64,000 nt of DNA from Comamonas sp. NLF-1-9 (GTDB taxonomy: Bacteria; Pseudomonadota; Gammaproteobacteria; Burkholderiales; Burkholderiaceae_C): assembly GCF_019195435.1 (NCBI RefSeq), contig NZ_CP078069.1, forward strand, positions 2,232,001 through 2,296,000, given 5' to 3'. The position numbers and the translations under genes are program-made. Under the pieces are notes generated by a model that worked only from the letters and a program-made list of their open reading frames with translations, ran no database searches and was not told the origin of the DNA. The first letter of the stretch is position 1, and each line of letters opens with the position of its first letter. Shown piece after piece: positions 8,196 to 44,900 of the stretch.

Positions 8196-9509
8196 TCAGC
8201 GCGCGTCACCCACGCCCAGGGGCGCGGGCGCGAGCTGGGTGATGCGCTTGAACAGCTCGGCGTAGCGGTTTGCCTCGCCGCTCCAGGGGTCGCCGTTGCG
8301 CGCAAAATCGGCATTGATGGCCTCCCACTCGGCGGGCGTGAACAAGCGCCGCGCGACCGGCAGGATTTCGCGCTCCTCGGTGCCCACGTGCGCCCATTCC
8401 TCGGCCACGTAGCGGCGCACCGCGTCGCGAAAGCCGGGAAAGCTCGCCGCCCCGCCCTGCACATAGCTGACCAGCGCGCGGTCGAGCCGGCTGGTCATGG
8501 CCACCGCGTCGTGGTGCTCGGCCTCCAGCCGATCGAGCTGGGCATCGAGCTCGCGCGTCTTGCTGCGCAGCAGCGCGAAGATCTGGTTCTCCTTGGGGTG
8601 ATGCACCTTGTCGGGCATCTCGGCGATGTATTCGATCAGGCTCGCCAGCAGCGTGAAATTGGGCTCGATCTGGGCGCTCTCTATGCCTTGCACGATGTGG
8701 CTCAAGGCATGCAGCACGGCGGCGATCGCGCGGTGCTCGTTCTGGATCACGTCGATCGCCGGGATGCGCTCGCGCACCGGCTTGGCGGCGGGCCGGCTCT
8801 CGGCGCCCGAGCCCGCGCCCAGCCAGCCCTCCAGGCGCTCGCGGTCGTGCAGCAGCGCGGCGCTGTCGCCGGCGTAGACGGCGCGCCCGCGCTCGAGCAC
8901 CAGCGCGTTTTCGGTGATCGGCAGAATCTGGCGCGCGTGCTGCTCCACCAGGATCACCGCCATGCTGGCCTGCTGCACCATGCCCTCGATGATGTGCAGC
9001 AGCTCCTGCGCGATCAAGGGCGCCAGGCCCTCCAGCGGCTCGTCAAGCAGCAGCATGCGCGGGTTGAGCATGAGCGCCCGCCCTATGGCCAGCATCTGGC
9101 GCTCGCCGCCCGAAAGCTGGTTGCCCATGTTGGCGCGCCGTTCGCGCAGACGCGGGAACAGCGCGTACACGCGCTCCAGGCCCCATTCGCCGGGGCGTTG
9201 CACCACCGTGAGGTTTTCCTCGACGGTGAGCGAGGGAAAGACGTCGCGCTGCTGCGGCACCCAGCCCAGGCCCAGGCGCGCACGCTCATGGCTGGGCATG
9301 CGCGTGATGTCCACGCCGCCAAAGACGATGCGCCCGCGGCGCAGGCGCGTGGCGCCCATCAGCGTGGTGAGCAGCGTGGTCTTGCCCATGCCGTTGCGCC
9401 CGAGCAGCGCCAGGCTGCCCCCGGCCGCGACGCTGAAGCCCAGCTCTTCGAGCACGATGGCATCGCCATAGCCGGCCCAGACGTTTTCCACCTGCAGCAG
9501 CTCAGGCAT
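8196..9509 (-). CDS. LivF-type ABC ATPase fused to a C-terminal hemerythrin (HHE) domain
   Basis: A 437-residue protein. Residues 1-235 are a LivF branched-chain-type ATPase: Walker A GRNGMGKTT (38-46), signature LSGGE (132-136), Walker B LLLDEP (153-158) and the switch His191. Normal LivF ends near 235-240. Here a linker (about 236-250) leads into a hemerythrin-like helical domain (about 251-425) with likely di-iron ligands in NEHR (His259), HHPKE (His303/304, Glu307), EHHD (His332/333) and HVGTEERE (His374, Glu379). No stop or frameshift separates the two parts. It is the last gene of the lig/liv operon and overlaps livG by 8 bp. An oxygen- or iron-responsive control of transport is inferred from the fusion alone. 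Confidence 0.9.
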   Translation of the reverse strand: MPELLQVENVWAGYGDAIVLEELGFSVAAGGSLALLGRNGMGKTTLLTTLMGATRLRRGRIVFGGVDITRMPSHERARLGLGWVPQQRDVFPSLTVEENLTVVQRPGEWGLERVYALFPRLRERRANMGNQLSGGERQMLAIGRALMLNPRMLLLDEPLEGLAPLIAQELLHIIEGMVQQASMAVILVEQHARQILPITENALVLERGRAVYAGDSAALLHDRERLEGWLGAGSGAESRPAAKPVRERIPAIDVIQNEHRAIAAVLHALSHIVQGIESAQIEPNFTLLASLIEYIAEMPDKVHHPKENQIFALLRSKTRELDAQLDRLEAEHHDAVAMTSRLDRALVSYVQGGAASFPGFRDAVRRYVAEEWAHVGTEEREILPVARRLFTPAEWEAINADFARNGDPWSGEANRYAELFKRITQLAPAPLGVGDAR

Positions 9510-10254
9510 GGGCTTCTCCCAGATAGACCTCGCGCACGCGCGGATGGCTGGCGATGACCTCGGGCGTGTCCTCCAGCAGCAGGCTGCCCGAAACCAGCAC
9601 CGAGATGCGCTCGGCAAAGCGAAACACCAGGTCCATGTCGTGCTCGATCAAGAGGATGGTCACCTCGCGCGGCAGCTGCGCTATCACCTCGAAGAGCTCG
9701 CGGCTCTCGCTCGTGGGCACGCCCGCAGCCGGCTCGTCCAGCAGCAGCACCTTGGGGCGCTGGGCCAGCGCCAGCGCGATCTCGATCAGCCGCTGGCGCC
9801 CGTAGGCGAGGTTGCGCGTCAGCGCATAGGCGTCGGCCAGCAGCCCCAGGCGCTGCAGGATGGCGGCCGCCTCGTCCAGCGCCTCGGCGCGCGCGGCCAG
9901 CGGCTTCCACCAGCGCGCGCCCAGACCCTGGCGCTCGGCGGCCGACAGCGCCACCGATTCGAGCACCGTCATGTCGCCAAACAACTGGTTGATCTGGAAG
10001 GTGCGCACCAGGCCGCGTCGGCAGCGCGCCCACTGGGCCATGGCGCTCACGTCCTCGCCCAGCAGCGTCACGCGGCCTTCGGTCGGCGTGAGGTAGCCGG
10101 TCAGCAGGTTGATCAAGGTGGTCTTGCCCGCGCCGTTGGGCCCGATCAAGGCGTGGCGTGCGCCGGCCTGCACGCTCAAGTTCACGTGGTCGGTGGCGAC
10201 GAAACCGCCAAATCGGCACACCAGATCGTGGGTCTGCAATACCGTGGTGCTCAT
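9502..10254 (-). CDS. livG: LIV-type ABC transporter ATPase LivG (aromatic-operon copy)
   Basis: A 250-residue ATPase of the hydrophobic amino-acid/aromatic acid (HAAT) ABC family. Walker A is GPNGAGKTT, with VRTFQINQLFGDMTV (a typical LivG Q-loop region), a degenerate signature around AYGRQR, Walker B LLLDEPAAG and the C-terminal REVYLGEA typical of LivG. The start at 10254 overlaps the livM stop by ATGA. Its position after mobA and the lig genes suggests the transporter imports a hydroxybenzoate or related aromatic acid, but substrate cannot be read from sequence. Confidence 0.93.
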   Translation of the reverse strand: MSTTVLQTHDLVCRFGGFVATDHVNLSVQAGARHALIGPNGAGKTTLINLLTGYLTPTEGRVTLLGEDVSAMAQWARCRRGLVRTFQINQLFGDMTVLESVALSAAERQGLGARWWKPLAARAEALDEAAAILQRLGLLADAYALTRNLAYGRQRLIEIALALAQRPKVLLLDEPAAGVPTSESRELFEVIAQLPREVTILLIEHDMDLVFRFAERISVLVSGSLLLEDTPEVIASHPRVREVYLGEAHA

Positions 10255-11303
10255 GGCGCGAGCTCCTGGCCGCGCTGGCGCGCGCGCTCGCGCCGCCGCT
10301 CGAGCCACTGCGCGGCCGTGCCCAGGATGCCGCCGCGCGCGAACATCACCAGCAACACCAGCGCCAGGCCGAGCCAGAACTGCCAGTACTGCGGGTTGAT
10401 GTCCGAGAGCAGGTGCTTGGCGACGATGAAGACGATGGCGCCGATCAGGCCGCCGTACAGGCGCCCGGTGCCGCCCAGGATCAGGATCAGGAGCAGGTCG
10501 GCCGAATTCTCGAAGCCCAGCACCGACAGCGAGACGAACTGGTTGGTCTGCGCGAGCACCGCGCCGGCCACGCCCGCATAGGCCGCGCCCAGCGTGTAGA
10601 CGGCCACCAGGCGGCGATGCACCGGCACCCCGAGCGCCGGCATGCGCTGCGCGTTCATCTGGATGCCGCGCAGGCTCTGGCCAAAGGGGGAATGCACGAT
10701 GCGCCGCGCCAGCCAGAACAGCAGGAACAGCACCGCTACCGCATAGAGGTAGCCCACGCGGCCATACATGTCGAACTCGAACAGGCCGAGGATGGGCTTG
10801 ATCTCCAGGCCCGGAATGCCGTCCACGCCGCCGGTGATGCGGGTGAACTTGTTGGCCAGTTCATAGAGCATGAGCGCCACGCCCAGCGTGACCATGAGCC
10901 GCGCCAGATCGCTGCCGCGCAGCACCAGAAAGCTGCTGAGAAACCCCAGCACCGCGGCAAACAGCGCGGCCAGCAGCAGCCCGGTGAGCGGATCGCCCAT
11001 GCCTCTGAGTCCCAGCAGGCCGACGGTGTAGGCGCCAACCCCGAAGAAGGCCGCGTGGCCCAGCGAGATGATGCCGGCGTAGCCGAAGATCAGGTCCAGC
11101 GAGAGCGCGAACAGGCCGGTGATCGCGATCTGGCTGAGCAGCAGGTAGTTGCCGGGAAACAGGAAGTAGGCCAGCACCGGCAGGCACCAGAACAGGTATT
11201 CCAGCGCATGCCAGCGGGCCGAGCGGCGCTGGCGCTGCAGCGTCTCGTGCAGCGCCGCGGGCGGGGCGTGCGCGGCCTTGCGGGGCACGGAGGGTGAGTT
11301 CAT
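10251..11303 (-). CDS. livM: LIV-type ABC transporter permease LivM (aromatic-operon copy)
   Basis: A 350-residue inner-membrane permease with a cytoplasmic N-terminal extension of about 30 residues and roughly 8-10 hydrophobic segments. It contains the LivM-type motifs FGYAGIISLGHAAFFGVGAY and LGGTGRLYGGLIGAIVF. It would pair with LivH as the translocation pore. It starts 9 bp after livH and overlaps livG at its stop, within the long minus-strand operon. Confidence 0.94.
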   Translation of the reverse strand: MNSPSVPRKAAHAPPAALHETLQRQRRSARWHALEYLFWCLPVLAYFLFPGNYLLLSQIAITGLFALSLDLIFGYAGIISLGHAAFFGVGAYTVGLLGLRGMGDPLTGLLLAALFAAVLGFLSSFLVLRGSDLARLMVTLGVALMLYELANKFTRITGGVDGIPGLEIKPILGLFEFDMYGRVGYLYAVAVLFLLFWLARRIVHSPFGQSLRGIQMNAQRMPALGVPVHRRLVAVYTLGAAYAGVAGAVLAQTNQFVSLSVLGFENSADLLLILILGGTGRLYGGLIGAIVFIVAKHLLSDINPQYWQFWLGLALVLLVMFARGGILGTAAQWLERRRERARQRGQELAP

Positions 11304-11312
11304 GTGCGTGCC

Positions 11313-12167
11313 TCAGTGGTGGGGACGGCCAAACAGACCTTGCGGGCGCAGGATCAGGATGAGGACCATGATGGCGTAGATGATGAAGGCGCCGATCTGC
11401 GGCACGTAGTACTTGCCCGCGACGTCGGCCACGCCCAGCAGCAGCGCCGCCCAGAGCGAGCCGAGGATGTTGCCGCCGCCGCCCACGGTGACGACGATCA
11501 GGAAGTACACCAGGTACTTGACCGGAAACTCGGGGTCCAGGCCGAGCATTTCCACGCCAAGCGCGCCGCCCAGGCCCGCCAGCGCCGAACCGAGCGCGAA
11601 GGTGAGCATGAACACCCGGTTCACGTCTATGCCCAGGCCGCGCGCCGTGCCCTGGTTGTCCACCGCCGCGCGCAGGCGCGCGCCGAACGGGGTGCGGATC
11701 ACCGACCACTGCAGCAGCGCCGCGACGATGAGGCCCGCGACCACGAGGAACAGCCGGTACACGCCGATGTCCACGCCCGGCAGGTGGATCTGCCCGGTGA
11801 GAAACTCGGGCAGGTGCAGCGGCTGCTGGCGCGCGCCGAAGAAGTAATGCGTTGCCGCGACCGCCATGAACACCAGGCCCAGCGAGAACAACACCTGGTC
11901 GAGCGCTGAGGCCTCGTACAGGCGCCGGTACAGCAGCCGCTCCAGCAGCACCCCGAGCAGGCCGGGTACGACGATGGCAAACGGAATGGTCGCGAGGAAG
12001 GGCAGACCCCAGTCATTGAGTAGCACCACGCAGACATAGCCGCCCACCATGGCGAACACCCCGTGCGCGAGGTTGACGAAGTTCATCAGCCCGAGCGTGA
12101 CCGACAGGCCGACGCTGATCAGAAACAGCAGCATGCCGAAGGCGATGCCGTCAAAAATGATCGTCAT
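11313..12167 (-). CDS. livH: LIV-type ABC transporter permease LivH (aromatic-operon copy)
   Basis: A 284-residue inner-membrane permease starting MTIIFDGIAFGMLLFLISVG, with LMNFVNLAHGVFAMVGGY, the LivH family motif near residues 27-45, and about eight membrane segments. It ends with LRPQGLFGRPHH, a typical LivH terminus. It is the first membrane component after the binding protein (65-bp gap), with livM 9 bp downstream. Confidence 0.94.
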   Translation of the reverse strand: MTIIFDGIAFGMLLFLISVGLSVTLGLMNFVNLAHGVFAMVGGYVCVVLLNDWGLPFLATIPFAIVVPGLLGVLLERLLYRRLYEASALDQVLFSLGLVFMAVAATHYFFGARQQPLHLPEFLTGQIHLPGVDIGVYRLFLVVAGLIVAALLQWSVIRTPFGARLRAAVDNQGTARGLGIDVNRVFMLTFALGSALAGLGGALGVEMLGLDPEFPVKYLVYFLIVVTVGGGGNILGSLWAALLLGVADVAGKYYVPQIGAFIIYAIMVLILILRPQGLFGRPHH

Positions 12168-12232: not shown

Positions 12233-13411
12233 TTACTTGGCGACCTTGCCCGGGTCCTTGACCGCTTGCAGCGTGGCGAATTCCACGTTCTGCAGCTCGC
12301 CGCCGACCTCTTCGAGCTTGCGGATGTACTCGTTCTGGACCACGTCGCGCGTCTCGGCGTCGATCTGCACCGGGCCGCGCGGGCTCATCCATTGCATGCC
12401 CTTGGCCGCGGCCACGAAGGCCTCGCCCGTGGCATCACCCTTGGTTTTTTCCAGCACCTGGTAGATCAGGTGCATGCCGTCGTAGCCGCCCACGGACATG
12501 AAGTTCGGGCGGTCCTTGGGAAAGGCCTTCTTGTAGGCCGCGACATAGGCCTTGTTCTCGGCCGAGTCGTGCGCCTGCGAGTAGTGGAAGGCAGTGATCA
12601 GGCCGAGCGCCGAATTGCCCATGGCGGCGAGTTCGTTCTCGTCCGTCAGGTCGCCCGGGCCTATCGCCTGGATGCCGGCCTTGTCCAGGCCAAGCTCGCG
12701 AAAGCCCTTCATCAGCGCCACCATGGAGCTGCCCGGCGGCACGAAGGTGAACATGGCGTCGGGCTTGGCGTCCTTCACGCGCTCCAGGTAGGCGGCGTAG
12801 TCGGCGGTGTTCACCGGCGTGCGCACCTCGCCGACGATCTTGCCGCCGAGCTCGGTGAAGGTCTTCTTGAACTGGGTCTCGGCGTCGTGGCCGGGGCCAT
12901 AGTCGGCCACCAGCGTGTAGGCCGACTTGATGTTGTTCTCCGCCGCCCACTTGGCCATGGCCCACGAGCCCTGGGGCAGCGTCATCGAGACGCGCACGAT
13001 GTAGGGCGACTTTTCGGTGATCGAGGAGGTGGCGGCGTTCATCACGATCATAGGCACCTTGGCCTGGGTGGCCAGGGGCGCGACGGAGAAGGCGTTGGGC
13101 GTGAGGTCGAACCCGGCCAGGATGTCCACCTTGTCGTTGACCAGCAGCTCCTGCGCGGCGCGCTTGGCCACCTGCGGCGCCATGCCGGTGTCGTCCTTGA
13201 CGATGAGCTTGACCTTGCGCCCGGCCACGGTGTCGCCATGCTCGGCCATGTAGACGTCGATGCCGTGCTTGATCTGCTTGCCGTAGGCGGCAAACGGGCC
13301 GGACACCGACAGCACCAGGCCGATGGTCAAGTCCTTGGCCTGGGCCAGTCCTGCGCTGGCCAGCGCGGCGGCGACCAGCGTGGCCCGGATGGCGGTTTTG
13401 ATGGGTCGCAT
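12233..13411 (-). CDS. Periplasmic substrate-binding protein of LIV-type transporter
   Basis: A 392-residue type I periplasmic binding protein (peripla_BP_6/LivK-like). A signal peptide (MRPIKTAIRATLVAAALA, cleavage after GLAQA) is followed by DLTIGLVLSVSGPFAAYGKQ, the family's first strand and ligand loop. The ATG at 13411 has AGGAGAC four bases upstream. It lies 40 bp after mobA and precedes livHMGF, so it delivers ligand to this transporter. Co-transcription with 3-hydroxybenzoate and protocatechuate genes points to an aromatic acid ligand. That is inference. Confidence 0.92.
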   Translation of the reverse strand: MRPIKTAIRATLVAAALASAGLAQAKDLTIGLVLSVSGPFAAYGKQIKHGIDVYMAEHGDTVAGRKVKLIVKDDTGMAPQVAKRAAQELLVNDKVDILAGFDLTPNAFSVAPLATQAKVPMIVMNAATSSITEKSPYIVRVSMTLPQGSWAMAKWAAENNIKSAYTLVADYGPGHDAETQFKKTFTELGGKIVGEVRTPVNTADYAAYLERVKDAKPDAMFTFVPPGSSMVALMKGFRELGLDKAGIQAIGPGDLTDENELAAMGNSALGLITAFHYSQAHDSAENKAYVAAYKKAFPKDRPNFMSVGGYDGMHLIYQVLEKTKGDATGEAFVAAAKGMQWMSPRGPVQIDAETRDVVQNEYIRKLEEVGGELQNVEFATLQAVKDPGKVAK

Positions 13412-13451: not shown

Positions 13452-15344
13452 TCAGCCGCGCGGGCGCAAGATGGCGCCAAGGAAGGCCGCGAGCTCGGCC
13501 CTTGCGGCCAATGGCAGCACGTGCGCGACGTATTGGTCCGGGCGCACCAGAACCATGGCCCCGGCGCGGTCTATGCCGCGCAGCGCAAAGATGTCCTCGC
13601 CCGGCAGCGTGGCGAACACGTTCTCGTAGTCGACGAGCTGCCAGGGGCCTGTGCGCGGCTTGTAGGCCAGCGGCACCCGCTCGATAGCGACCGCCTCGTG
13701 CGGCTGCTGGTAGATGATCTTGATGTCGAACCAGGCGTTGTCGTCCAGCCCCGCCGGGGTGTGGGCGCGCACCGGCGACTCTGGCGCATCGGCCAGCCAG
13801 CGGCCCAGCGCGCCGGCCGCGGAATCCTCGCCGGCAGGTGGCGCGTCGGCAAACACGTACAGGCGCCAGCGCCCGTCGGCGCGCGCCTGGTGGCCCAGGT
13901 GCAGCGGCCGCGCGTCGGCCACGCGCACCACGCGCGCGGACTTGAAGCGCTTGCCGATCGCAAAACCCGTGGCCAGGTGCTGGTGCGTCGCCTCGCCGGT
14001 GATGGACGAGGGCGCGTACTGCGTCATGAAGCCCTGGGCAAATTCGGTGATCTGCGCGTAGGCCGCCTCGACCTCCTCGGGGCTGCCCAACTGCTCTGGC
14101 GGCGTGGCCATCATCGTGGCCCAGCGCTTGTCAAAGTCGATGATGTCCTGCCCTATGACCTGGCGCTCGGCCGAATAGCTGGCCAGCAGGCTCTCGGGGC
14201 TGCGCCCTTCGAGCACGTGCGCGAGCTTCCAACCGAGGTTGAAGCCGTCCTGCATGGACACGTTCATGCCCTGCCCGGCCTTGGCGCTGTGGGTGTGCGC
14301 GGCGTCGCCGGCGATGAACACCCGCGGCGCGCGCACGCCGCGCTGCTCTGCCGGCACGTCGTCAAAGCGGTCGCACACGCGGTGGCCGACCTCGTACACG
14401 CTGTACCAGGCGACGTGGCGCACGTCGAGCGTGTAGGGGCGCAAGATGGCCTGGGCGCGCGCAATGGTCTGCTCTACCGTGGTCTGGCGCACCGCAGCGC
14501 CGGCGCCGGGCTGCACCTCGCCCAGATCGACGTAGAGCCGGAACATGAAGCCGCCTTCGCGCGGAATCAGGAGAATGCTGCCGCCCTCGCCCGACTTGAT
14601 CACGCACTTGGTGCGCACGTCGGGAAAGTCGGTCACCGCCAGCAGGTCGATCACGCCCCAGGCGTGGTTGGAGGTGCTGCCCTGGAATTCGCAGCCCACG
14701 GCGCGGCGCACGCGGCTGTGCGCGCCGTCGGTGCCGACCAGATAGCGCGCGCGCACCGTGCGCATCTGGCCTTCGTGTTCCCCGGCGGTGTGGCGCAGAG
14801 TCGCGCTGACAGGGTATTCGCCGTGCCGGGCAAGCTGCAGATCCTGCAGCTCCAGCCCGTAGTCCACCTGCATGCGCGTGGGCGCGCGCTGCATGAATTG
14901 GGCAAAGTAGTCGAGCACGCGCGCCTGGTTGACCAGGATGTGCGGGTATTCGCTCACGCCGTGCTCGTCCTCGGGCTCGCGCGTGGCGCGCACGATGCGC
15001 GCGGGATCCTGCGGGTCGGGCTTCCAGAACACGGTCTGCGTCACCTCGCAGCCTTCGGCGACGATTTCATCGGCAAAGCCGAAGGCCTCGAAGGTCTCGA
15101 CGCTGCGCTTCTGGATACCGTCGGCCTGACCGATCGCAAGGCGCGCGGCGCGCCGGTCGATGATGCGCGTGCGGATGCCGGCAAACTGCGACAGCTGCGC
15201 CGCCACGATCATGCCGGCCGGCCCCGCGCCGACGATGAGCACGTCCAGCTCTTCGGGCAATTGCGTGGGGCGGTCCAGCCCGACGCCGGCGGCGGGCTGC
15301 ACGCGCGGGTCGCTGGAGACGTAGCCGTGGTGGTGAAACTGCAT
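13452..15344 (-). CDS. mobA: FAD-dependent aromatic hydroxylase, probably 3-hydroxybenzoate 4-monooxygenase
   Basis: A 630-residue class A flavoprotein monooxygenase of the phenol 2-monooxygenase/MobA group. It has the FAD dinucleotide fold [10 protein letters not shown] (about 37-46), the NAD(P)H/FAD motif LVGTDGAHSRVRRAVG, the flavin motif GDAAHTHSAKAGQGMNVSMQD split around residue 330, and a C-terminal thioredoxin-like domain ending near 630. The length is close to MobA (about 640). Position between ligC and an ABC transporter in a protocatechuate 4,5-cleavage operon supports 3-hydroxybenzoate to protocatechuate. Phenol 2-monooxygenase is the main alternative, but phenol is handled by the multicomponent enzyme elsewhere in this window. 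Confidence 0.82.
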   Translation of the reverse strand: MQFHHHGYVSSDPRVQPAAGVGLDRPTQLPEELDVLIVGAGPAGMIVAAQLSQFAGIRTRIIDRRAARLAIGQADGIQKRSVETFEAFGFADEIVAEGCEVTQTVFWKPDPQDPARIVRATREPEDEHGVSEYPHILVNQARVLDYFAQFMQRAPTRMQVDYGLELQDLQLARHGEYPVSATLRHTAGEHEGQMRTVRARYLVGTDGAHSRVRRAVGCEFQGSTSNHAWGVIDLLAVTDFPDVRTKCVIKSGEGGSILLIPREGGFMFRLYVDLGEVQPGAGAAVRQTTVEQTIARAQAILRPYTLDVRHVAWYSVYEVGHRVCDRFDDVPAEQRGVRAPRVFIAGDAAHTHSAKAGQGMNVSMQDGFNLGWKLAHVLEGRSPESLLASYSAERQVIGQDIIDFDKRWATMMATPPEQLGSPEEVEAAYAQITEFAQGFMTQYAPSSITGEATHQHLATGFAIGKRFKSARVVRVADARPLHLGHQARADGRWRLYVFADAPPAGEDSAAGALGRWLADAPESPVRAHTPAGLDDNAWFDIKIIYQQPHEAVAIERVPLAYKPRTGPWQLVDYENVFATLPGEDIFALRGIDRAGAMVLVRPDQYVAHVLPLAARAELAAFLGAILRPRG

Positions 15345-15399: not shown

Positions 15400-16356
15400 T
15401 CAGGCGGCGAGCTGGCGCTCGAGCAGGTCGAGCACCTCGTAGCAGGGCAGCACCTGGGCCACGCTGGCATTGGGCTCGCGCCCCTCGCGGATGGCAGCAA
15501 AGAATTCGCGGTCCTGCAGCTCGATGCCGTTCATCGAGACGTCCACCTGGCTCACGTCGATTTTCTCGTCGCGCCCGTTGCTCAGATCGTCGTAGCGCGC
15601 GACGTAGGTGCCGCTGTCGCCGATGTAGCGAAAGAAGGTGCCCAGCGGCCCGTCGTTGTTGAACGACAGCGACAGCGTGCAGATCGCGCCATTGGCCGCC
15701 TTGAGCTGGATGCTCATGTCCATGGCGATGCCCAGCTCGGGATGGATGGGGCCCTGCAGCGCATGCGCCTGCACGATGGGGCTGCCCGCCTGCCAGGCAA
15801 ACAAGTCCACGGTGTGCGCCGCATGGTGCCAGAGCAGGTGGTCGGTCCAGGAGCGCGGCTGGCCCAGCGCATTGGTGTTGCTGCGCCGAAAGAAATAGGT
15901 CTGCACATCCATCTGCTGGATTTGCAGCTCGCCCGCGGCGATGCGCCGGTGCACCCACTGGTGGCTGGGGTTGAAGCGGCGCGTGTGCCCGACCATGGCC
16001 ACCTTGCCGCTCTTGCGCTGCGCCTGCGCCACCTGCTGGCCGTCGGCGAGCTTGTCGCACAGCGGGATTTCCACCTGCACGTGCTTGCCCGCCTCCAGGC
16101 ACTGGATGGCCTGGGCCGCATGCATCTGCGTGGGCGTGCACAGGATGACCGCGTCCACATCGGGGCGCGCCAGCACCTCGGCCAGATCGGTGCCGGCGTG
16201 GGCAATGCCGTACTTGCGCGCCACCTCCTCGGTGGGGGCAAGGCGCCGCCCGACGAGCGCGACCACTTGCACGCCCTCGATCTGGCGCATGCCTTCCAGA
16301 TGCTTGATGCCGAAGGCCCCGGCACCGACCAGGGCGACCTTGATGGGAGTGTTCAT
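15400..16356 (-). CDS. ligC: 4-Carboxy-2-hydroxymuconate-6-semialdehyde dehydrogenase
   Basis: A 318-residue Gfo/Idh/MocA-fold oxidoreductase. The N-terminal Rossmann motif is VALVGAGAFGIKHLEG and the EIPLCDKLADG segment lies at the domain junction. It oxidises the ring-cleavage product (hemiacetal form of 4-carboxy-2-hydroxymuconate-6-semialdehyde) with NAD(P)+ to 2-pyrone-4,6-dicarboxylate. The direct genetic context ligA-ligB-ligC fits LigC/PmdC. Start ATG 16356; a family A repeat fills the gap upstream. Confidence 0.92.
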   Translation of the reverse strand: MNTPIKVALVGAGAFGIKHLEGMRQIEGVQVVALVGRRLAPTEEVARKYGIAHAGTDLAEVLARPDVDAVILCTPTQMHAAQAIQCLEAGKHVQVEIPLCDKLADGQQVAQAQRKSGKVAMVGHTRRFNPSHQWVHRRIAAGELQIQQMDVQTYFFRRSNTNALGQPRSWTDHLLWHHAAHTVDLFAWQAGSPIVQAHALQGPIHPELGIAMDMSIQLKAANGAICTLSLSFNNDGPLGTFFRYIGDSGTYVARYDDLSNGRDEKIDVSQVDVSMNGIELQDREFFAAIREGREPNASVAQVLPCYEVLDLLERQLAA

Positions 16357-16367
16357 TTCTTTCCCTT

Positions 16368-17715
<1,348 letters not shown>

Positions 17716-17727
17716 GGCGTACTCCTT

Positions 17728-18645
17728 TCAGTGCGCTTCGGGCCAGTACAGGCGCATCGGGTTGTCGACCAGCAGCTTGCGTTGCAGCTCGGCCGTGGGC
17801 GCGATGTGCGGGATGAAATCGACCAGCAGCCCGTCGTCGGGCATGTGCTGCTTGAGATTGGGGTGCGGCCAGTCGGTGCCCCAGAGCACGCGGTCGGGAA
17901 ACTCCTGCACCACGCGGCGCGCAAACGGCACCACGTCGCGGTAGGCGGCCTGCTCGCCATGCAGGGCGGGCGGGCCGCTTACCGACAGGCGCTCGGGGCA
18001 GCTCACCTTGCTCCAGACGTTGGCGTGCTCGCGCATGAACTTGAGGAAGAGCGCGAATTGCGCGCTGTCCACGCCCTTGGCGACGTCGGGGCGGCCCATG
18101 TGGTCGACCACGACGGTGGTGGGCAGCGCGCTGAAGAAGTCCCAAAGCTCGGGCAGGTCTGCCGCCTCGAAGTAGATCACCACATGCCAGCCCAGCGGGC
18201 GGATGCGCTCGGCAATTTCCATCAGCTCTTCGCGCGGCGTGAAGTCCACGAGGCGCTTGACGAAGTTGAAGCGCACGCCGCGCACGCCGGCCGCATGCAG
18301 GCGCTGCAATTCTTCGTCGCTCACGCCGCGGCGCACCGTGGCGACGCCGCGCGCGCGGCCGCCCGCGGCCTGCAGTGCGTCGACCAGCGCGCGGTTGTCC
18401 GCGCCGTGGCAGGTGGCCTGCACGATGACGTTGCGCGCAAAGCCCAGGTGATCGCGCAGCGCAAACAGCTCGGCCTTGCCCGCGTCGCAGGGCGTGTATT
18501 TGCGCTCGCTGGCGTAGGGGAATTCATCGCCCGGGCCGAAGACGTGGCAATGCGCATCGACCGCGCCCGGCGGGAGTTGAAAGCGCGGACGCGACGGGTT
18601 TTGGTACCAGTCGAGCCAGCCGGGGGTTTTTTCAAAGCGGCTCAT
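17728..18645 (-). CDS. ligI: 2-Pyrone-4,6-dicarboxylate hydrolase
   Basis: A 305-residue amidohydrolase-fold lactonase that opens 2-pyrone-4,6-dicarboxylate to 4-oxalomesaconate. It has GAVDAHCHVFGP (His-x-His metal-binding motif), VVDHMGRPD, and the late WGTDWPHPN motif with catalytic Asp. The start at 18645 overlaps the DUF1932 dehydrogenase stop by 4 bp. The Pmd equivalent is PmdD. Confidence 0.94.
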   Translation of the reverse strand: MSRFEKTPGWLDWYQNPSRPRFQLPPGAVDAHCHVFGPGDEFPYASERKYTPCDAGKAELFALRDHLGFARNVIVQATCHGADNRALVDALQAAGGRARGVATVRRGVSDEELQRLHAAGVRGVRFNFVKRLVDFTPREELMEIAERIRPLGWHVVIYFEAADLPELWDFFSALPTTVVVDHMGRPDVAKGVDSAQFALFLKFMREHANVWSKVSCPERLSVSGPPALHGEQAAYRDVVPFARRVVQEFPDRVLWGTDWPHPNLKQHMPDDGLLVDFIPHIAPTAELQRKLLVDNPMRLYWPEAH

Positions 18646-19585: not shown

Positions 19586-20269
19586 TCAATCGATGTAGCG
19601 CAAACCGGCCTTGGCCAGGCCCTCGCGCATCTTGTAGTAGTCCAGGCCGAGCACGCCGCTGGCGAAGATCTCGCGCTTGCCGCCCTCGTTGTCCTCGCGC
19701 TTTTGCGCCGCTTGCAGCGTGGCGCCGGCGCGCTCGCGCGGCACGCAGACGACGCCGTCGTCGTCGGCCACGACCACGTCGCCCGGGCGCACCCACATGC
19801 CGGCGCAGACCACGGGGATATTGACCGAGCCCAGCGTTGCCTTGATCGTGCCCTTGGAGGAAATCGCGCGGCTCCAGACCGGAAAGCCCATCTCCTGCAG
19901 CGTGCGCACGTCGCGCACACCGGCGTCGATGATGAGGGCACGCGCGCCCTGCGCCTTGAAGCTGGTGGCCAGCAGGTCGCCAAAATAGCCGTCGGTGCAT
20001 TCGCTGGTCACGCCCGCGACCACGACGTCGCCCGGGCGGATCTGTTCGGCCGCGACGTGCAGCATCCAGTTGTCGCCGGGCTGCAGCAGCACCGTCACGG
20101 CCGTGCCCGAGACGCGCGCGCCCGGGTAGATGGGACGCATATAGGGTTTGAGCAGCCCCACTTTGCCCAGCGCCTCGTGCACCGTGGCGCTGCCGTAGTG
20201 CGCCAGCGCGTCGGCGCTGGCCCGGTCGGCACGCTCGATGTTGCGATAGACCACGCCCAGTTCGTACAT
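19586..20269 (-). CDS. ligK: 4-Carboxy-4-hydroxy-2-oxoadipate aldolase / oxaloacetate decarboxylase
   Basis: A 227-residue class II (HMG/CHA) pyruvate aldolase of the RraA-like fold that splits 4-carboxy-4-hydroxy-2-oxoadipate into pyruvate and oxaloacetate. Features: [12 protein letters not shown] at the N-terminus, [30 protein letters not shown] with the catalytic Arg, and DDDGVVCVP. Length matches LigK/PmdF (227-228). It precedes the DUF1932 gene by 17 bp. Confidence 0.95.
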
Positions 20270-20293
20270 TGTCAACTCCGTTTCCGTTTCTTC

Positions 20294-20393: not shown

Positions 20394-21422
20394 TCACAAA
20401 CCGCGCGCCTTGAGCCGCGCATCCAGGCGCGTGAACACGCGCCGCGCGTTGCCTTCGTAGACCAGGTGCTTCTCCTCGGGCGTGAGGTTCTGCGTCGCCT
20501 CGACATAGCGGCGGGTGTCGTCGTAGTAATGCCCGGTCTCGGGGTCGATGCCGCGCACCGCGCCGATCATTTCGCTGGCGAACAAGATGTTCTTCACCGG
20601 GATCACCTCGGTCAGCAGGTTGATGCCCGGCTGGTGGTAGACGCAGGTGTCGAAATAGACGTTGTTCAGCAGGTGCTCGTCGAGCAGCGGTTTCTTGAGC
20701 TCTTGCGCCAGACCCCGGTAGCGCCCCCAGTGGTAGGGCGCGGCGCCGCCGCCGTGCGGAATCAGGAACTTGAGCGTGGGGAAATCCTTGAACAAGTCGC
20801 CCTGGATGAGCTGCATCACCGCCGTGGTGTCGGCATTGATGTAGTGCGCGCCGGTGGTGTGAAAGCAGGCATTGCAGCTGGTGCTCACGTGGATCATTGC
20901 GGGGATGTCGTGCTCGACCATCTTCTCGTAGATCGGATACCAGTGGCGGTCGGTCAAGGGCGGGCTGCTCCAGTGCCCGCCCGAGGGGTCGGGGTTGAGG
21001 TTGATGCCGACGGCGCCGTACTCGCGCACGCACTTTTCAAGTTCGGGGATGCAGCTGGCCGGGTCAACGCCGGGCGACTGCGGCAGCATAGCCGCAGGCA
21101 CGAAGTGCTCGGGGAAGAGCGCACTCACGCGGTGGCACAGCTCGTTGCAGATCGCGGCCCAGGTGCTCGAGGTCTGGAAGTCACCGATGTGGTGCGCCAT
21201 GAAGCTCGCGCGCGGGCTGAAGATGGTCAGGTCGCTGCCGCGCTCCTGCATCAGGCGCAACTGGTTTTTTTCGATGCTCTCGCGGATCTCGTCGTCGCTG
21301 ATGCTGAGCTCCGAAGCGCGGGGCGACGAACTGGCGTCGGCAAGCGCGGCAATCTGCCGCTGGCGCCACTCGCCCAGCGCCGCGGGTGCGGTGGTGTAGT
21401 GGCCGTGCACGTCGATGATCAT
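20394..21422 (-). CDS. ligJ: 4-Oxalomesaconate hydratase
   Basis: A 342-residue amidohydrolase-superfamily hydratase that adds water to 4-oxalomesaconate to give 4-carboxy-4-hydroxy-2-oxoadipate. It has [13 protein letters not shown] at the N-terminus (metal-binding HGH), [20 protein letters not shown], and [15 protein letters not shown]. The length agrees with LigJ/PmdE (about 341). The ATG at 21422 is chosen over one 36 bp upstream because MIIDVHGHY is the conserved family start. Confidence 0.94.
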
Positions 21423-36921: not shown

Positions 36922-37793
36922 CGGTCCCGCGTGGCAGGGAACAAGCCCTGGGGCCGCGCCCAGAGAATGCCCAGAAACGCCAGATGCCCGGCCAGCGTGC
37001 CCCAGCCCGGATCCAGCCGCGAGCCTATGGCCTGGGCCACGCCCAGCACCACGCCGCCGGCCACCGTGCCCCAGAGCGAGCCCAGGCCGCCGATGATCAC
37101 CGCCTCGAAGGCGTAGATCAGCCGCGCCGGCCCGTCCGAGGGACTGACCGTGGTGCGCATCACCAGAAAGGCGCCGGCCAGCGCCACCATGGCGCTGCCG
37201 AACACCATGGCCAGCGCGTAGACGTGCTTGCGGTTGACGCCCATGAGCGAGGCGGTGTCCGCATCGTCCGATGTCGCGCGAAACGAGCGGCCCATGGCGG
37301 TGCGCCGAAACAGCCATTGCAGCGCCGCGATGCAGGCCAGGCCCACGAGCATCACCAGCAGCGGCAGCACCCCGACGTTCACCTGGCCGCCCAGCCCCCA
37401 GGTGGCTGTGGCCAGCGGCCCCACGTCCACGCTGCGCACGTCGGCAGAGAACACCGCCTGCAGGCTCTCGCGGATCACGATGGACAGCCCGAAGGTCAGC
37501 AGCAGCGGGCGCAGCATGTCCGCGCCCAGAGTGCGGTTGAACACCAGGCGCTGCGCCGCATAGCCGAGGGCGCTGAGCACGCAGACCACCAGCACGACGG
37601 TGAGCGCCATCGGCAGCCGCAGGTAGTTGGCGCCGACGATGGTCGCGTAGCTGGCCAGCACGATCATGTCGCCATGGGCGATGTTGATCATGCGCATCAC
37701 GCCAAAGCTGATCGACAGGCCGGCGGCAAACAGCGCGTACAGCCCGCCCAGCAAGACGCCCTGCAGCAGGGTATTGAGCCACTCCGCGATCAT
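36918..37793 (-). CDS. livH: LIV-type ABC transporter permease LivH (phenol-operon copy)
   Basis: A 291-residue permease beginning MIAEWLNTLLQGVLLGGLYA, with the LivH motif GVMRMINIAHGDMIVLASYA and IIGGLGSLWGTVAGGVVLG. About eight membrane segments are expected. It overlaps livF (4 bp) at its start and livM at its stop. Confidence 0.93.
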   Translation of the reverse strand: MIAEWLNTLLQGVLLGGLYALFAAGLSISFGVMRMINIAHGDMIVLASYATIVGANYLRLPMALTVVLVVCVLSALGYAAQRLVFNRTLGADMLRPLLLTFGLSIVIRESLQAVFSADVRSVDVGPLATATWGLGGQVNVGVLPLLVMLVGLACIAALQWLFRRTAMGRSFRATSDDADTASLMGVNRKHVYALAMVFGSAMVALAGAFLVMRTTVSPSDGPARLIYAFEAVIIGGLGSLWGTVAGGVVLGVAQAIGSRLDPGWGTLAGHLAFLGILWARPQGLFPATRDR

Positions 37794-38509
37794 GGCGCTG
37801 CCCCCGCCGCAGCGCCAAAATAGGCCTGCGCGATCTGCTCGCGCGTGAGCTCAACGGGCGCGCCCGCCAGCACCACACGCCCTTCGCGCATGCACACCAC
37901 ATGCCGGGCCACGCCCAGGGCCTGGCTGATGTCCTGCTCGACCACGATGACCGAGACGCCCTGCGCGCACACCGTCGGCAGCGCGCGGTAGATGTCGCGC
38001 ACCACCACCGGCGCCAGGCCCAGGGAGAGCTCGTCGCACAGCAGCAGGCGCGGATTGCTCATCAGCGCGCGCCCGAGCGCCACCATCTGCTGCTGCCCGC
38101 CCGAAAGTTCGGTGGCCGGGCGCGCGCGAAAGTCGCTCAGGATGGGGAACAGCGCATACACCGCCGCCAGGTCCCAGGGGCCGGGCCGGCGCACGTAAGC
38201 GCCCATCTGCAGGTTCTCCTGCACGCTCAGGCTGGGAAAGAGCCGCCGCCCCTCGGGCACCAGCGCAATGCCGGCCGCGCACACCTGGTGCGCGGGCAGA
38301 CCGCCGATGGTGCGGCCGTCGAAGCGTACGCTGCCCGAGCGCAGCGCCAGCGCCCCCGCCAGGGTGCGCAGCAGCGTGGACTTGCCCGCGCCATTGGCGC
38401 CGATGATGGCCAGCACCTCGCCCTCGGGCAGATTCAGGTCTATGCCGTGCAGCGCCTGAAAGTCTCCATAGCCCGCGCTCAGGCCCTGCACCTGCAGCAG
38501 CGCGCTCAT
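37790..38509 (-). CDS. livF: LIV-type ABC transporter ATPase LivF (phenol-operon copy)
   Basis: A 239-residue ATPase of normal LivF length: Walker A GANGAGKST (about 37-45), PEGRRLFPSLSVQENL (typical LivF), signature LSGGQQQ, Walker B LLLCDELSLGL and VVEQD. The Walker B box has Cys before Asp-Glu, within family variation. Unlike the LivF of the other cluster it has no extra domain, a useful contrast. Overlaps livG and livH by 4 bp each. Confidence 0.94.
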   Translation of the reverse strand: MSALLQVQGLSAGYGDFQALHGIDLNLPEGEVLAIIGANGAGKSTLLRTLAGALALRSGSVRFDGRTIGGLPAHQVCAAGIALVPEGRRLFPSLSVQENLQMGAYVRRPGPWDLAAVYALFPILSDFRARPATELSGGQQQMVALGRALMSNPRLLLCDELSLGLAPVVVRDIYRALPTVCAQGVSVIVVEQDISQALGVARHVVCMREGRVVLAGAPVELTREQIAQAYFGAAAGAAP

Positions 38510-39261
38510 GCGGCGGCCTCCTCGCCAAGGTCTATGCCCATGTAGATTTCGCGCACCGCCGGCTCGTTCATCACGTCCTGGGGCGCACCCTCGGTCACCT
38601 TGCGCCCGAAGTCCAGCGCCACCAGCCGACCGACCACCGCCACCAGCGCATGCACGATGTGCTCTATCCAGATCAGCGTCACGCCGCTGGCGTGGATGGC
38701 GCGAATGGTCTGCAGCAGCGCATGCACCTCCTGCTCGGTGAGGCCCCCGGCGATCTCGTCGAGCAGCAGCAGGCGCGGGCGGCTGGCCAGCGCGCGCGCC
38801 AGCTCCAGGCGCTTGCGGTCGAGCAGCGGCAGCGCGCCAGCCAGGCGGTCGGCCTTGTCCAGCAGCCCGGTCTGCGCGAGCACCTGGCGCGCCTGCACGC
38901 GCGCGGCCTTCTCGCCCGCGCCGGCGCCGAAGATCGCCCCGACGAGCACGTTCTCGAACACCGTCAGGCCGCCAAAGGGCTGGGGTACCTGGTAGGTGCG
39001 CGCGATGCCGGCGCGGCAGCGCTCCTGCGCCGACAGCCCGGTGAGCTCGCGCCCGGCAAAAAGCACCTGGCCGCCATTGGGCGCGATGTCGCCAGCTATC
39101 AGATTCATGAGCGTGGTCTTGCCCGCGCCGTTGGGCCCGATCACGCCCAGCGCTTCGCCTTCGGCCACCTGCAGGTCGAGCCCGTCGACCACGCGCAGCG
39201 CGCCGAAGCGGCGGCTGAGCGCGCGCAGCTCCAGCAGCGGGGCGCCCTCGTGCGCGGCCAT
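38506..39261 (-). CDS. livG: LIV-type ABC transporter ATPase LivG (phenol-operon copy)
   Basis: A 251-residue ATPase with Walker A GPNGAGKTT, ARTYQVPQPFGGLTVFENV (LivG region), Walker B LLLLDEIAGGL and the terminal REIYMG. The ATG at 39261 is preferred to one 24 bp upstream because GAGG precedes it and it lies 4 bp after the binding-protein stop. The Walker B Glu is present although Pro is replaced by Ile (DEIAGG). Confidence 0.92.
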   Translation of the reverse strand: MAAHEGAPLLELRALSRRFGALRVVDGLDLQVAEGEALGVIGPNGAGKTTLMNLIAGDIAPNGGQVLFAGRELTGLSAQERCRAGIARTYQVPQPFGGLTVFENVLVGAIFGAGAGEKAARVQARQVLAQTGLLDKADRLAGALPLLDRKRLELARALASRPRLLLLDEIAGGLTEQEVHALLQTIRAIHASGVTLIWIEHIVHALVAVVGRLVALDFGRKVTEGAPQDVMNEPAVREIYMGIDLGEEAAA

Positions 39262-40544: not shown

Positions 40545-41333
40545 TCAGACAAAGCGCAGGGACACGCTGCCCATGCCCTGCATCCTGAGCGTGACGTGGT
40601 CGCCCGCCTGCACCGCGACGGCTTCGGTCGCGCCGCCCGAGAGGATGAGCGAGCCTGCGGGCAGGCTCTTGCCGCGGCGCCCCAGGTGGTTGACCAGCAT
40701 GGCCACGGCGGCGGCCGGGTGGCCGAGCACGGCGGCGCCCGCGCCCAGGGCCACGGGCACGCCGTTCTTTTCCAGCACGAGGCCGGTGGTGCGCAAGTCC
40801 ACGCTGCGCGCGTCCACTGCCTGCCCGCCGACGACGAAGCGCGCGGCCGAGGTGTTGTCGGCCACCACGCTCTTGAGGTCGAACTTGAAGTCGCGGTAGC
40901 GGCTGTCGATGACCTCGATGCCGGGCAGCACCACGTCGCTGGCGGCCAGCACGCTGGCGATGCTGCAGCCCGGGCCGGTGAGTTCGGTGCGGGTGACGAA
41001 GCAGATCTCGGGCTCTACCTTGGGGTGGATCAGTTCGCTCACCTTGACCTCGCCGCCGTCGGGCACGGTGAACTCGTCGACCAGGAAGCCGAACACCGGG
41101 TCGGTCACGCCCATCTGGCGCATCTTGGCGTGCGAAGTCAGGCCCGCCTTGTAGCCGGCGACGCGCGCGCCGCCCTTGAGCTTGGCCGCGAGGATGCGGT
41201 CCTGGATGGCGTAGGCGTCGTCCCAGTCCATCTCGGGGTGCTCGTCGGTGATCTTGGGCGTGTCGCGCGCCTCGCGCTGGCAGGCGTGCAGGTGCTTGGC
41301 AAGCTGGTCCAGGGTTTTGGAAGAAAGAGCCAT
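40545..41333 (-). CDS. dmpH: 2-Oxo-3-hexenedioate decarboxylase (4-oxalocrotonate decarboxylase)
   Basis: A 262-residue member of the fumarylacetoacetase/hydratase-decarboxylase family that decarboxylates 2-oxo-3-hexenedioate to 2-oxopent-4-dienoate, in the dehydrogenase branch of catechol meta-cleavage. Motifs: VAGYKAGLTS, VEPEICFVTRTEL (metal-binding Glu), GIEVIDSRYRDFKF. It is close in sequence to dmpE in this window, as the two enzymes are paralogous and act as a complex. Separated from dmpG by a chemoreceptor gene. Confidence 0.9.
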   Translation of the reverse strand: MALSSKTLDQLAKHLHACQREARDTPKITDEHPEMDWDDAYAIQDRILAAKLKGGARVAGYKAGLTSHAKMRQMGVTDPVFGFLVDEFTVPDGGEVKVSELIHPKVEPEICFVTRTELTGPGCSIASVLAASDVVLPGIEVIDSRYRDFKFDLKSVVADNTSAARFVVGGQAVDARSVDLRTTGLVLEKNGVPVALGAGAAVLGHPAAAVAMLVNHLGRRGKSLPAGSLILSGGATEAVAVQAGDHVTLRMQGMGSVSLRFV

Positions 41334-41361
41334 GGGTTTGAAGTCCGAAGCGATGAAAAAA

Positions 41362-42744
41362 TCAGGAAGCGCGAACCAGCGCGGCGGCCGGCAGCGCCTG
41401 CTTGGCCGCGTCGTAGGCCTGGCGCACCGCGCCGGGGATGAAGCTGCGCACCTCGTCAAAACGCCCGGCCTGGGCCAGCGCCAGCGCCTGGCCGCGCACC
41501 CGGCGGTAGTGCGCCAGCGCGTCGGCAAAGCCGCGCGCCGCATCGGCGGCCTGGGCCCGGCGCCCGGCGCGCTGCTGCCAGCGCTGCCAGGCAGCGTCCA
41601 GGCGCTGGTCGAGCTGGGCAATGCGCTGCAGCACCGGCGCCAGTTCTGCGCCCGAAGCCGAGTTCATCACCAAGATGTTGCAGGCGCGCATCTCCTCTAT
41701 GCAGTCGGTGAGCACGTCCACCTCGCGCTGGCTGGCGAGCAGCGCGCTGGTGTCCTGCTTGAGTTCGCCGATCAGGCCTTGCACCACGCGCAGCTGGGCG
41801 TTGCTCTTGCCCACCCATTCGAGCGACTGGCCGGCGGCCGAGGCCAGCCGGCGTGCGCCATCGACCAGGCGCTCGCTCACCGCGTCCTGGGTCTGCGCCG
41901 CCTCGGCCATGTGGCGCGCGGCCTGCAGGGTGCGGTCCGAGCGCGCGCGAATGTCGGCCAGCGCGGCGCCGGTCTCGCGCGTGCGCTGCACGCTCTCATG
42001 CACGCCCTCGAGCACGGTCTTGAGGTGAGCGTCGGCCGCGGCCGCGCTGCTGGTAATGCCGGCAATCGTCTGCTGGATCTGCTGCGTCGCCTCGCCGGTG
42101 CGCACCGCGAGCTTGCGCACCTCGTCGGCCACCACTGCAAAGCCCTTGCCCTGCTCGCCCGCGCGCGCCGCCTCCACCGCGGCGTTGAGCGAGAGCAGGT
42201 TGGTCTGCATGGTGACGTTCTGAATGACCGCCAGCATCCCCTTGATCTCCTGCGTGTGGCGCATCACCTCGCGAAAGCGCGCCTCCAGCCCCTGGGCCGA
42301 TTGCGCCAGCGCCTCGATGCCGCTGGCCGCATGGTGCAGCAGGGTGTCGCCCTGCTCGGCCAGGCCGTGCATGCTGCCGACCTCTTCGTGCGTCACCTCG
42401 GCGGACTGCACCACGGTCTGCACGCTGGCCGACAGCGCATCGACCTCGTCGTGCAGGCCGGCGAGCAGGCTCTGCTGCTCGCGCGAGGTAGCCACGACGC
42501 GGGTGAAGGAGGACATCATGCCGGCGTTCTCCGCTATCACCGCCAGCGCGTGGCGGTCGGCGCGCGCGGCCGCGTCCGGGGCCAGGCCGCGCAGGGAGCG
42601 CGGGCGCAGCAAGGCCGTCAGGCACAGCAGCAACAGCGCCAGCAGCGCCCAGGGCTGCAGCGCCGGCCAGGGCGCGAGCGGCGAGGCCAGCGCGGCCAGT
42701 GCCAGCGCCAGCGCCGCTGCAAGGAAAGCCGCTGCCCGCTGCAC
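41362..42744 (-). CDS. Methyl-accepting chemotaxis protein with C-terminal helical sensor-like region
   Basis: A 460-residue chemoreceptor. Two membrane segments (about 5-22 and 32-48) are separated by a very short loop, so no periplasmic sensor is present. The MCP signalling core [19 protein letters not shown] through [18 protein letters not shown] is at about 174-216. The C-terminus (about 340-460) is helical and has the [19 protein letters not shown] and [19 protein letters not shown] patterns seen in 4-helix-bundle (4HB) MCP sensor domains, which normally lie N-terminal. The start is GTG with GAGG upstream, 9 bp after dmpG. Co-transcription suggests a role in chemotaxis to phenol or a metabolite. 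Confidence 0.88.
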
Positions 42745-42753
42745 GCCAGCGCC

Positions 42754-43788
42754 TCAGGCCACCTTCAGCCCGCGCTGGCGCGCGAGCGTGAGAGCGGTGT
42801 CTTCGATCATGTCTTCCTGCCCGCCGACGCAGCCGCGGCGGCCCATCTCGACGAGGATTTCGCGCGCGGGCACGCCGTACTTCTTTTCGGCGCGCTTGGC
42901 GAACAAGAGGAAGGAGCCATAGACGCCCGCATAGCCCAGCGTGAGCGCGTCGCGGTCGATGCGGATGGGGAAGTCCATCATCGGCACGATCAGGTCTTCG
43001 GCCACGTCCTGGATCTTGAACACGTCGACGCCGGTGTGCACGCCCATCAGGTCGAGCACCGCAACCAGCACCTCCATAGGCGTATTGCCCGCGCCCGCGC
43101 CCAGTCCCGCCGACGCGGCGTCCACGCGGTTGGCGCCCATCTCGATCGCGGTGATCGAATTGGCCACGCCCATGGCCAGGTTGTGGTGGGCGTGAAAACC
43201 CAGCTCGGTTTCGGGCTTGAGCGCCTCGCGCACCGCACCGAGCTTGGCGCGCACGTCATCGGGCAGCATGTGGCCGGCCGAGTCGGTGACGTAGATGCAG
43301 TTGGCGCCGTAGCCCTCCATCAACCTAGCCTGCCTGACCAGCCCGGCTGCATCGTTCATGTGGCTCATCATCAGAAAGCCCACGGTGTCCATGCCGAGCT
43401 TGCGCGCCATGGTGATGTGTTGCTCGGACACATCCGCCTCGGTGCAGTGCGTGGCCACGCGGATGGTGTGCACGCCGAGCTCGTGCGCCATCTTCAGGTG
43501 GTCGACGGTGCCTATGCCGGGCAGCAGCAGCGCCGAGACCTTGGCCTGTTTCATCAAGGGGATGACGGCGCTCAGGTATTGCTCGTCGGTGTGCGCGGCA
43601 AAGCCGTAGTTGACCGAATCGCCGCCCAGGCCGTCGCCGTGGGTGACCTCGATCAGCGGCATGCCGGCCGCGTCCAGCGCGGTGGCGATGCTCTTCATCT
43701 GCTCGATGCTGATCTGGTGCTGCTTGGGGTGCATGCCGTCGCGCAGCGCCATTTCGTGCAGCGTGACTTTCTTGCCTTGGATGCTCAT
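42754..43788 (-). CDS. dmpG: 4-Hydroxy-2-oxovalerate aldolase
   Basis: A 344-residue HMGL-like TIM-barrel aldolase that splits 4-hydroxy-2-oxovalerate to pyruvate and acetaldehyde, channelling acetaldehyde to DmpF. It has [15 protein letters not shown] (metal and catalytic Arg/Asp), [15 protein letters not shown] (metal His pair) and [15 protein letters not shown]. The ATG at 43788 is chosen because AGAGG is 8 nt upstream; an ATG two codons earlier is also possible. Confidence 0.95.
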
Positions 43789-43812
43789 GTTCATGTCCTC
43801 TTTGTCTTGAAC

Positions 43813-43925
43813 TCCTTCCCCCTTTGGGGGAAGGTGGGGATGGGGGCTTGGGCTCAAGCAAGACAACTTGCCTGTGCGGGCGCTGCTGGCCCCCACGCCT
43901 GCCCTCCCCCAGCGGGGGAGGGAGA
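43813..43925. repeat. C/G-run palindromic repeat family B, locus 2
   Basis: Arms CTTCCCCCTTTGGGGGAAG and CCTCCCCCAGCGGGGGAGG flank about 70 bp in the 145-bp gap between dmpG and dmpF. It has the same architecture as loci 1 and 4, including the GTGGGGATGGGGGC / GCCCCCACG secondary arms. Expected to form strong stem-loops within the operon mRNA. Confidence 0.7.
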
Positions 43926-43933
43926 AAAATCCG

Positions 43934-44848: not shown

Positions 44849-44867
44849 ACCAACACTCCTTGTCTAT

Positions 44868-44897
44868 CCAGCCCTCTCCCCAACGGGGCGAGGGAGA
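44868..44897. repeat. C/G-run palindromic repeat family B, locus 3 (half copy)
   Basis: A single palindromic arm, CCCTCTCCCCAACGGGGCGAGGG, in the 52-bp gap between dmpF and dmpE, resembling one arm of loci 1, 2 and 4. A single hairpin is expected. Confidence 0.55.
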
Positions 44898-44900
44898 AAT

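Follow-up and report, generated by a model that had tools for sequence, protein, structure and literature searches.

A LivF ATPase with a hemerythrin-like C-terminal domain in an aromatic-acid operon of Comamonas

The window analyzed here, a 64,000-nucleotide stretch of the Comamonas sp. NLF-1-9 genome, encodes a protein in which the ATPase of a LIV-type ABC importer (LivF) is joined, in a single frame, to a hemerythrin-like (HHE) domain. The fusion gene lies next to the other genes of the importer and to genes for ring cleavage. As the leading explanation, held tentatively, we propose that HHE is a regulatory domain of an aromatic-acid importer that responds to redox state, NO, or O2; gene structure, sequence conservation, the tie to livF, and selection on the domain are observed directly, whereas we infer the iron binding, the signal, and the effect on transport. 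The fusion gene, its parts, and the surrounding operon comprise the following features:

8196..9509, minus strand: livF::HHE fusion gene, 437 aa, a single open frame of 437 codons with an ATG start
8805..9509, minus strand: LivF ATPase domain, residues 1-235
8769..8816, minus strand: low-confidence linker, residues 232-247 (pLDDT <50, weak conservation)
8232..8762, minus strand: HHE (hemerythrin-like) helical domain, residues 250-426 (PF01814 and predicted helices)
9502..10269, minus strand: livG ATPase (family-model matches)
10251..11303, minus strand: livM permease (family-model matches)
11313..12167, minus strand: livH permease (family-model matches)
12233..13408, minus strand: livK binding protein (best solved match 4ey3/4eyg/4eyk, E 3.3e-133)
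13452..15344, minus strand: FAD hydroxylase, phenol 2-monooxygenase family (NF006144, 982 bits)
15400..16356, minus strand: ligC-like dehydrogenase (PF01408, PF19858)
16401..17273, minus strand: ligB, class III extradiol dioxygenase beta subunit (PF02900, NF009903)
17350..17715, minus strand: ligA, protocatechuate 4,5-dioxygenase alpha subunit (TIGR02792, PF07746)
17731..18645, minus strand: ligI-like hydrolase (conserved synteny; NCBIfam match below cut-off)
19589..20278, minus strand: ligK aldolase (TIGR02798, 400 bits vs 304.5)
20397..21422, minus strand: ligJ-like hydratase (conserved synteny; no NCBIfam match at E 1e-40)

An earlier note on this DNA described residues 1-235 as a complete LivF followed by an in-frame C-terminal domain, and the intact 437-codon frame together with both Pfam matches bears this out. 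The two families that it had named were found in the fusion protein: ABC_tran (PF00005) at residues 20-159 (E 2.9e-29) and Hemerythrin (PF01814) at residues 252-385 (E 6.5e-14, 52.9 bits, above the gathering cut-off of 25.3). Walker A, Q-loop, signature (LSGGE), Walker B, and H-loop are kept in all family proteins that cover them, with the single exception of T44S; by these motifs and its livKHMG partners, the protein is a predicted LIV/HAAT ABC importer ATPase (LivF). The full-length structural model predicts helices in the HHE part at residues 250-277, 285-317, 322-333, 335-389, 392-405, and 415-426. The best 50 matches of a full-length fold search were all ABC chains covering residues 1-245, and PDB sequence searches with the HHE domain yielded no relatives (best E 0.51, unrelated chains).

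Compared with G657, G487, L006, and L014, in that order, dN/dS was 0.10, 0.34, 0.37, and 0.28 for the HHE part, 0.11, 0.24, 0.24, and 0.23 for the ATPase part, and 2.1, 0.9, 0.8, and 0.5 for the linker (19 codons). The HHE domain is under purifying selection and evolves somewhat faster than the ATPase in three of the four comparisons; its values of 0.10-0.37 rule out decaying passenger sequence. Across the fused proteins, the linker span between positions 230 and 258 amounts to 25-40 residues.

The names LigA, LigB, and LigK are backed by curated models, and those of the ligC-like, ligI-like, and ligJ-like genes, as well as the MobA-like label of the FAD hydroxylase (13452..15344), are ones that we presume to apply. 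The structures matched by LivK are, we take it, those of a Rhodopseudomonas binding protein solved with aromatic acids. The LIV transporter probably imports lignin-type (protocatechuate-type) aromatic acids, and the evidence supports the earlier placement of the LivF-HHE fusion within an operon for the O2-dependent breakdown of aromatic acids. In 11 of the 13 genomes found to carry the fusion, the gene order is, as far as the locus extends, ligJ-K-(U)-I-A-B-C-(mobA)-livKHMG-livF::HHE; L006 (with two livK genes) and L007 begin at ligI, and L013 and L017 lie on contigs too short for this comparison.

The window contains a second LIV system (36939-39237), near matches to catechol meta-cleavage (DmpE/DmpH-like) proteins at 40548-45608, with neither an HHE domain nor an adjoining HHE match. 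Genome-wide, 14 LivF-like places and five HHE places coincide as one pair only. The fusion is therefore specific to one cluster in this genome, as the earlier note had it; elsewhere, the LivF/HHE pairing is widespread in the form of two genes. One HHE paralog in the same genome (L148 9466-10119), with no LIV match nearby, adjoins rpoA and genes for ribosomal proteins, with a SpoIIE-like phosphatase gene facing it (gene names judged by eye).

When residues 236-437 were searched against proteins, 53 matches (query included) came back: 51 form the family, and two (P0052 and P0053) are universal-stress-protein fusions with a related HHE domain. Fused length (at least 400 aa) was reached by 46 of the 51, the query included, and five entries are shorter. 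Scanning the genome collection, we obtained 79 loci: 11 fused, 1 split, 33 with a stand-alone HHE gene after livF, and 34 other. Together with the window's genome and G657, the fused loci represent 13 distinct genomes, G487 and L007 being taken as one genome and likewise G352 and L009. The homolog survey that the earlier note had suggested thus finds the fusion in 13 genomes and 46 proteins. Because 13 distinct genomes carry it, 11 of them with the same lig and livKHMG genes, an assembly or sequencing error joining two genes is ruled out. Five further loci (L032, L033, L044, L051, and L056) were rejected as fusions: the HHE frame is open for >400 codons, but the livF match is in another frame, and they were classed as adjacent. 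Longer HHE proteins of ~340 aa occur in other contexts at nine loci (L052, L054, L057-L060, L062, L064, and L066; cluster 17).

The LivF-HHE fusion is rare. In a survey of the order, 59/399 genomes matched the HHE profile at 1e-15, and the 30 matches with DNA included two fused and two livF-adjacent cases. A family survey matched 57/399 genomes at 1e-40; 19 new loci with DNA yielded two fused and five adjacent cases. Among the 30 LivF loci with DNA from the survey of the family (own locus included), 23 lack any HHE of their own closer than 1.5 kb. Across the class, a LivF search of little weight, with just seven candidates scored per genome, found the fusion in the own genome alone among 369.

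The separate HHE gene that directly follows livF in 33/79 loci has ~195 codons. Adding seven adjacent loci from the later surveys to these 33, we measured 40 loci; in 37 of them, the distance from the livF stop to the HHE start is -4 to +34 nt (the exceptions are L035, which overlaps and has no assigned start, and L021 and L047, with longer gaps), and in 9/40 the two genes share a frame. This spacing points to co-transcription of livF and HHE. The operons concerned are of gentisate, Rieske-oxygenase, and benzoate/catechol types. The L021 operon encodes a 3-hydroxybenzoate 6-monooxygenase and a maleylacetoacetate-isomerase-like GST above model cut-offs, along with a gentisate dioxygenase (254 vs 442 bits) and a fumarylacetoacetate-hydrolase-family match that are both below; that of L051 encodes a Rieske oxygenase and a glutamine-synthetase-like protein, and that of L037 combines a catechol meta-cleavage enzyme (TIGR03218) with what looks by eye like a ferredoxin oxidoreductase. 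HHE genes here share their operons with an aromatic-acid ABC transporter, as in the systems described in the accessible part of PMC6449761. Two loci differ in layout. In a Castellaniella MAG (L015 7168-10555), a MobA-like hydroxylase gene sits between livF and a stand-alone HHE gene and so splits the parts of the fusion; on a 3.5-kb contig without any LIV match (L022 2530-3518), a stand-alone HHE gene directly precedes a gentisate-dioxygenase-like gene.

An HHE tree was built from 101 rows (quick search, SH-aLRT support only), leaving out twelve near-identical Vibrio-type rows (L071-L082) and L065, a partial HHE match counted as adjacent. Fifteen fused rows, the split L015, L022, and 25 adjacent rows form one group (support 93). 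Nine other adjacent rows and one further row cluster apart (93) within a group of 50 rows (97), and two of these nine, placed in the LivF tree, are far from the rest, with a very different LivF. The trees support the view that livF-HHE adjacency occurs in two different LIV lineages. Two congeners, G778 and G584, retain a complete lig-liv operon in which LivF is 246 aa long and HHE is missing; loss of the domain, with the operon retained, follows from their nesting inside the fused group of the LivF tree (96 and 100). At their loci (L179 and L180), LivF ends in a 15-residue linker-like tail, followed by an aldo/keto-reductase-like frame (by eye). By HHE, L017 belongs with the remaining fusions (93); the LivF tree leaves it unplaced. 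The history probably comprised one fusion event, one loss, and one split.

The HHE domain contains a putative di-iron site, with the following predicted ligands:

8733..8735, minus strand: predicted iron ligand H259, invariant in 51/51 proteins and 101/101 alignment rows
8589..8603, minus strand: predicted ligands H303 and E307 (HHPKE), invariant
8514..8516, minus strand: predicted ligand H332, invariant
8373..8390, minus strand: predicted ligands H374 with E378 or E379 (H374 and E379 in 101/101 rows, E378 in 96/101)

Eight residues, H259, H303, H304, E307, H332, H374, E378, and E379, are all kept in 51/51 database proteins, and in the full-length model, the predicted ligands sit in predicted helices. 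Among the ligands proposed earlier, H259, H303, E307, H332, and H374 were right, and H333 is no candidate (His in 1/15 fused rows). The E379 of that list is invariant in the 51 proteins, yet so is E378 (H+4), which matches YtfE E208 by spacing; the bridging Glu could be E378, by YtfE spacing, or E379, which is kept in more rows.

The canonical O2-binding hemerythrin motif, as given in the accessible text of PMC9388753, is H-HxxxE-HxxxH-HxxxxD, with five His, Glu, and Asp. Position 336 is His in 0/51 proteins and 3/101 of the wider rows, and Glu (H374+5) replaces Asp in all; because His336 is missing and the last acid is Glu, this five-His motif is absent, and the earlier claim of O2 sensing in the classical hemerythrin manner is unsupported. 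YtfE, according to the parts of PMC9268430 and PMC9052748 available to us, has the ligands H84, H129, E133, H160, H204, and E208 and is reported as an iron donor and as reducing nitrite to NO. The ligand spacing in HHE is 44/29/42 vs 45/31/44 in YtfE, with HxxxE occurring twice, a pattern match at the level of sequence. The residue preceding H332 is Glu in 15/15 fused rows, like E159 of YtfE, and D, E, or Q in adjacent rows. The predicted site of four His and two Glu thus resembles that of YtfE/RIC, which handles NO, nitrite, and iron. NCBIfam, which we assume to hold a RIC model, gave no match to a curated RIC model at E 0.01; the sole row was NF053874, at 15.7 bits against a cut-off of 190. 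The Pfam scan of the fusion protein detected no ScdA-type N-terminal domain.

NirS (E <1e-140) or NirK (above cut-off) was identified in 10 of the 11 fused genomes tested, L013 and L017 being outside the 11, vs 70/190 in the order (Fisher p 5e-4); the order sample has NirS in 50/190 and NirK in 20/190, with no genome in both listings. G1158 has neither enzyme, and the NirS match of G1151 contains one stop. NirS or NirK is also present in the split genome, L015, and in 7/7 adjacent-locus genomes, a biased choice of hand-picked, mostly named isolates; adding these seven lowers the Fisher p to 1.6e-6, with kinship among genomes ignored. Because NirS is also found in the HHE-free congeners G778 and G584 and in G720, which is without this LIV system, the denitrifier link may reflect shared ancestry. 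Denitrification was not borne out as a divider of HHE-bearing from HHE-free congeners, as 6/6 tested genus members have NirS. The association lends weak support to an NO or redox function.

If HHE is a regulatory domain, it would be a built-in accessory of the aromatic-acid LIV (HAAT-type) importer, with a predicted di-iron center of the YtfE/RIC kind held at the C terminus of LivF. LivF activity would change with the redox or ligand state of this center (NO, nitrite-derived NO, or O2): as long as LigAB and the FAD hydroxylase, both dependent on O2, can process protocatechuate-type acids, these would be imported, and import would drop in a denitrifying cell that has little O2 and much NO. The HHE protein that relatives make separately would act in trans. 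We favor a role at the transporter because of the livF association in two LIV lineages and the physical fusion, and NO or redox over classical O2 binding because of the four-His site and the denitrifying hosts. Of the earlier oxygen-sensor reading, the link between domain and transporter is supported, and classical O2 binding is not. Retention of the operon without the domain in two congeners fits a regulatory or accessory function and speaks against a core function in transport. We count against regulation the loss in G778 and G584, the 23/30 LivF loci without HHE, the split in L015, the faster evolution of HHE than of the ATPase in three of four comparisons, and NirS in the HHE-free congeners.

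It is possible, if rather doubtful, that the protein is a gas- or redox-gated ABC importer, the di-iron domain sensing NO and/or O2 and directly switching aromatic-acid uptake; elsewhere, a separate HHE subunit would exert the control, defining a general class of LIV importers with a di-iron partner. We know of no other ABC importer controlled by a di-iron center, so that, if the domain gates transport, this would be the first one known to us. Denitrifiers degrading lignin-type aromatics would then couple carbon uptake to O2 or NO status at the level of the protein. The proposal offers a testable role for the unexplained hemerythrin-type genes of aromatic operons, and the split, fused, and domain-lost forms can be compared directly for this purpose.

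We consider it unlikely that HHE instead serves the Fe(II)-dependent ring-cleaving dioxygenases of the operon (LigAB and gentisate dioxygenase) by iron repair or NO handling, its link to LivF setting membrane place and dose without control of transport. LigAB and gentisate dioxygenases use Fe(II), and the operons encode dioxygenases of both kinds (the gentisate match being below the model cut-off). The gene order in L022 and the mostly denitrifying hosts point the same way, as does the four-His/two-Glu pattern, spaced as in YtfE, the iron donor and nitrite reducer reported in the available parts of PMC9268430 and PMC9052748. However, the HHE gene follows livF in 33/79 loci, the fusion partner is LivF rather than a dioxygenase, and NCBIfam gave no RIC match at E 0.01.

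Alternatively, adjacent, co-expressed, independent proteins could have been joined by stop loss, HHE working alone as before, which we regard as improbable. The short gaps (37/40 adjacent loci), the frame common to both genes in 9/40, the variable, near-neutral linker, the separate parts in L015, and the loss of the domain in two congeners speak for such a passenger, but livF adjacency in two LIV lineages needs a reason, and 13 genomes have retained the fusion, the span from position 230 to 258 staying at 25-40 residues. An oxygen store, scavenger, or carrier that binds O2 close to the membrane and supplies or buffers the oxygenases encoded by these operons, as suggested for the COG3945 protein of benzoate operons in the accessible part of PMC6449761, is very improbable, given that the canonical O2-binding motif is absent and that one domain per transporter would make a small store.

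Compared with known systems, LivF/HAAT-type importer ATPases (PF00005; 1ji0) lack the C-terminal HHE domain of ~175 residues found here. The importer ATPases MalK, MetN, and ModC have C-terminal regulatory domains; an extra C-terminal domain is thus shared with LivF-HHE, but the fold differs, and the signal is presumably a metal or gas. YtfE/RIC, to the extent described in the sources at hand, is similar in its four His and two Glu, two HxxxE motifs, and ligand spacing, whereas the fusion protein has no NCBIfam RIC match and no ScdA-type N-terminal domain and is joined to an ATPase. In hemerythrin-coupled sensors (chemotaxis proteins and c-di-GMP enzymes; PMC9388753, accessible text), a hemerythrin-type domain is likewise joined to another functional domain, but the hemerythrin described there carries the five-His O2-binding motif that LivF-HHE lacks.

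No LivF-hemerythrin fusion was found in the literature searched, which excluded subscription journals and supplements. PMC4919030 presents 56 hemerythrin domain architectures in figures that could list an ABC fusion, and its accessible text does not contain "ABC." The closest system is that of PMC6449761, the accessible part of which does not mention a LivF fusion: in benzoate operons of Rhodocyclales and Rhodoferax, a COG3945 hemerythrin-type gene lies beside the benzoate ABC transporter, and its role is called unclear, with an oxygen store or scavenger suggested. The separate-gene association is therefore partly in print, and L037-type loci resemble, partly by eye, the BenR-regulated operon described there. 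Both systems encode a hemerythrin-type protein with an aromatic-acid ABC transporter; the protein is separate in the benzoate operons, whereas here it is fused to LivF and tied to protocatechuate.
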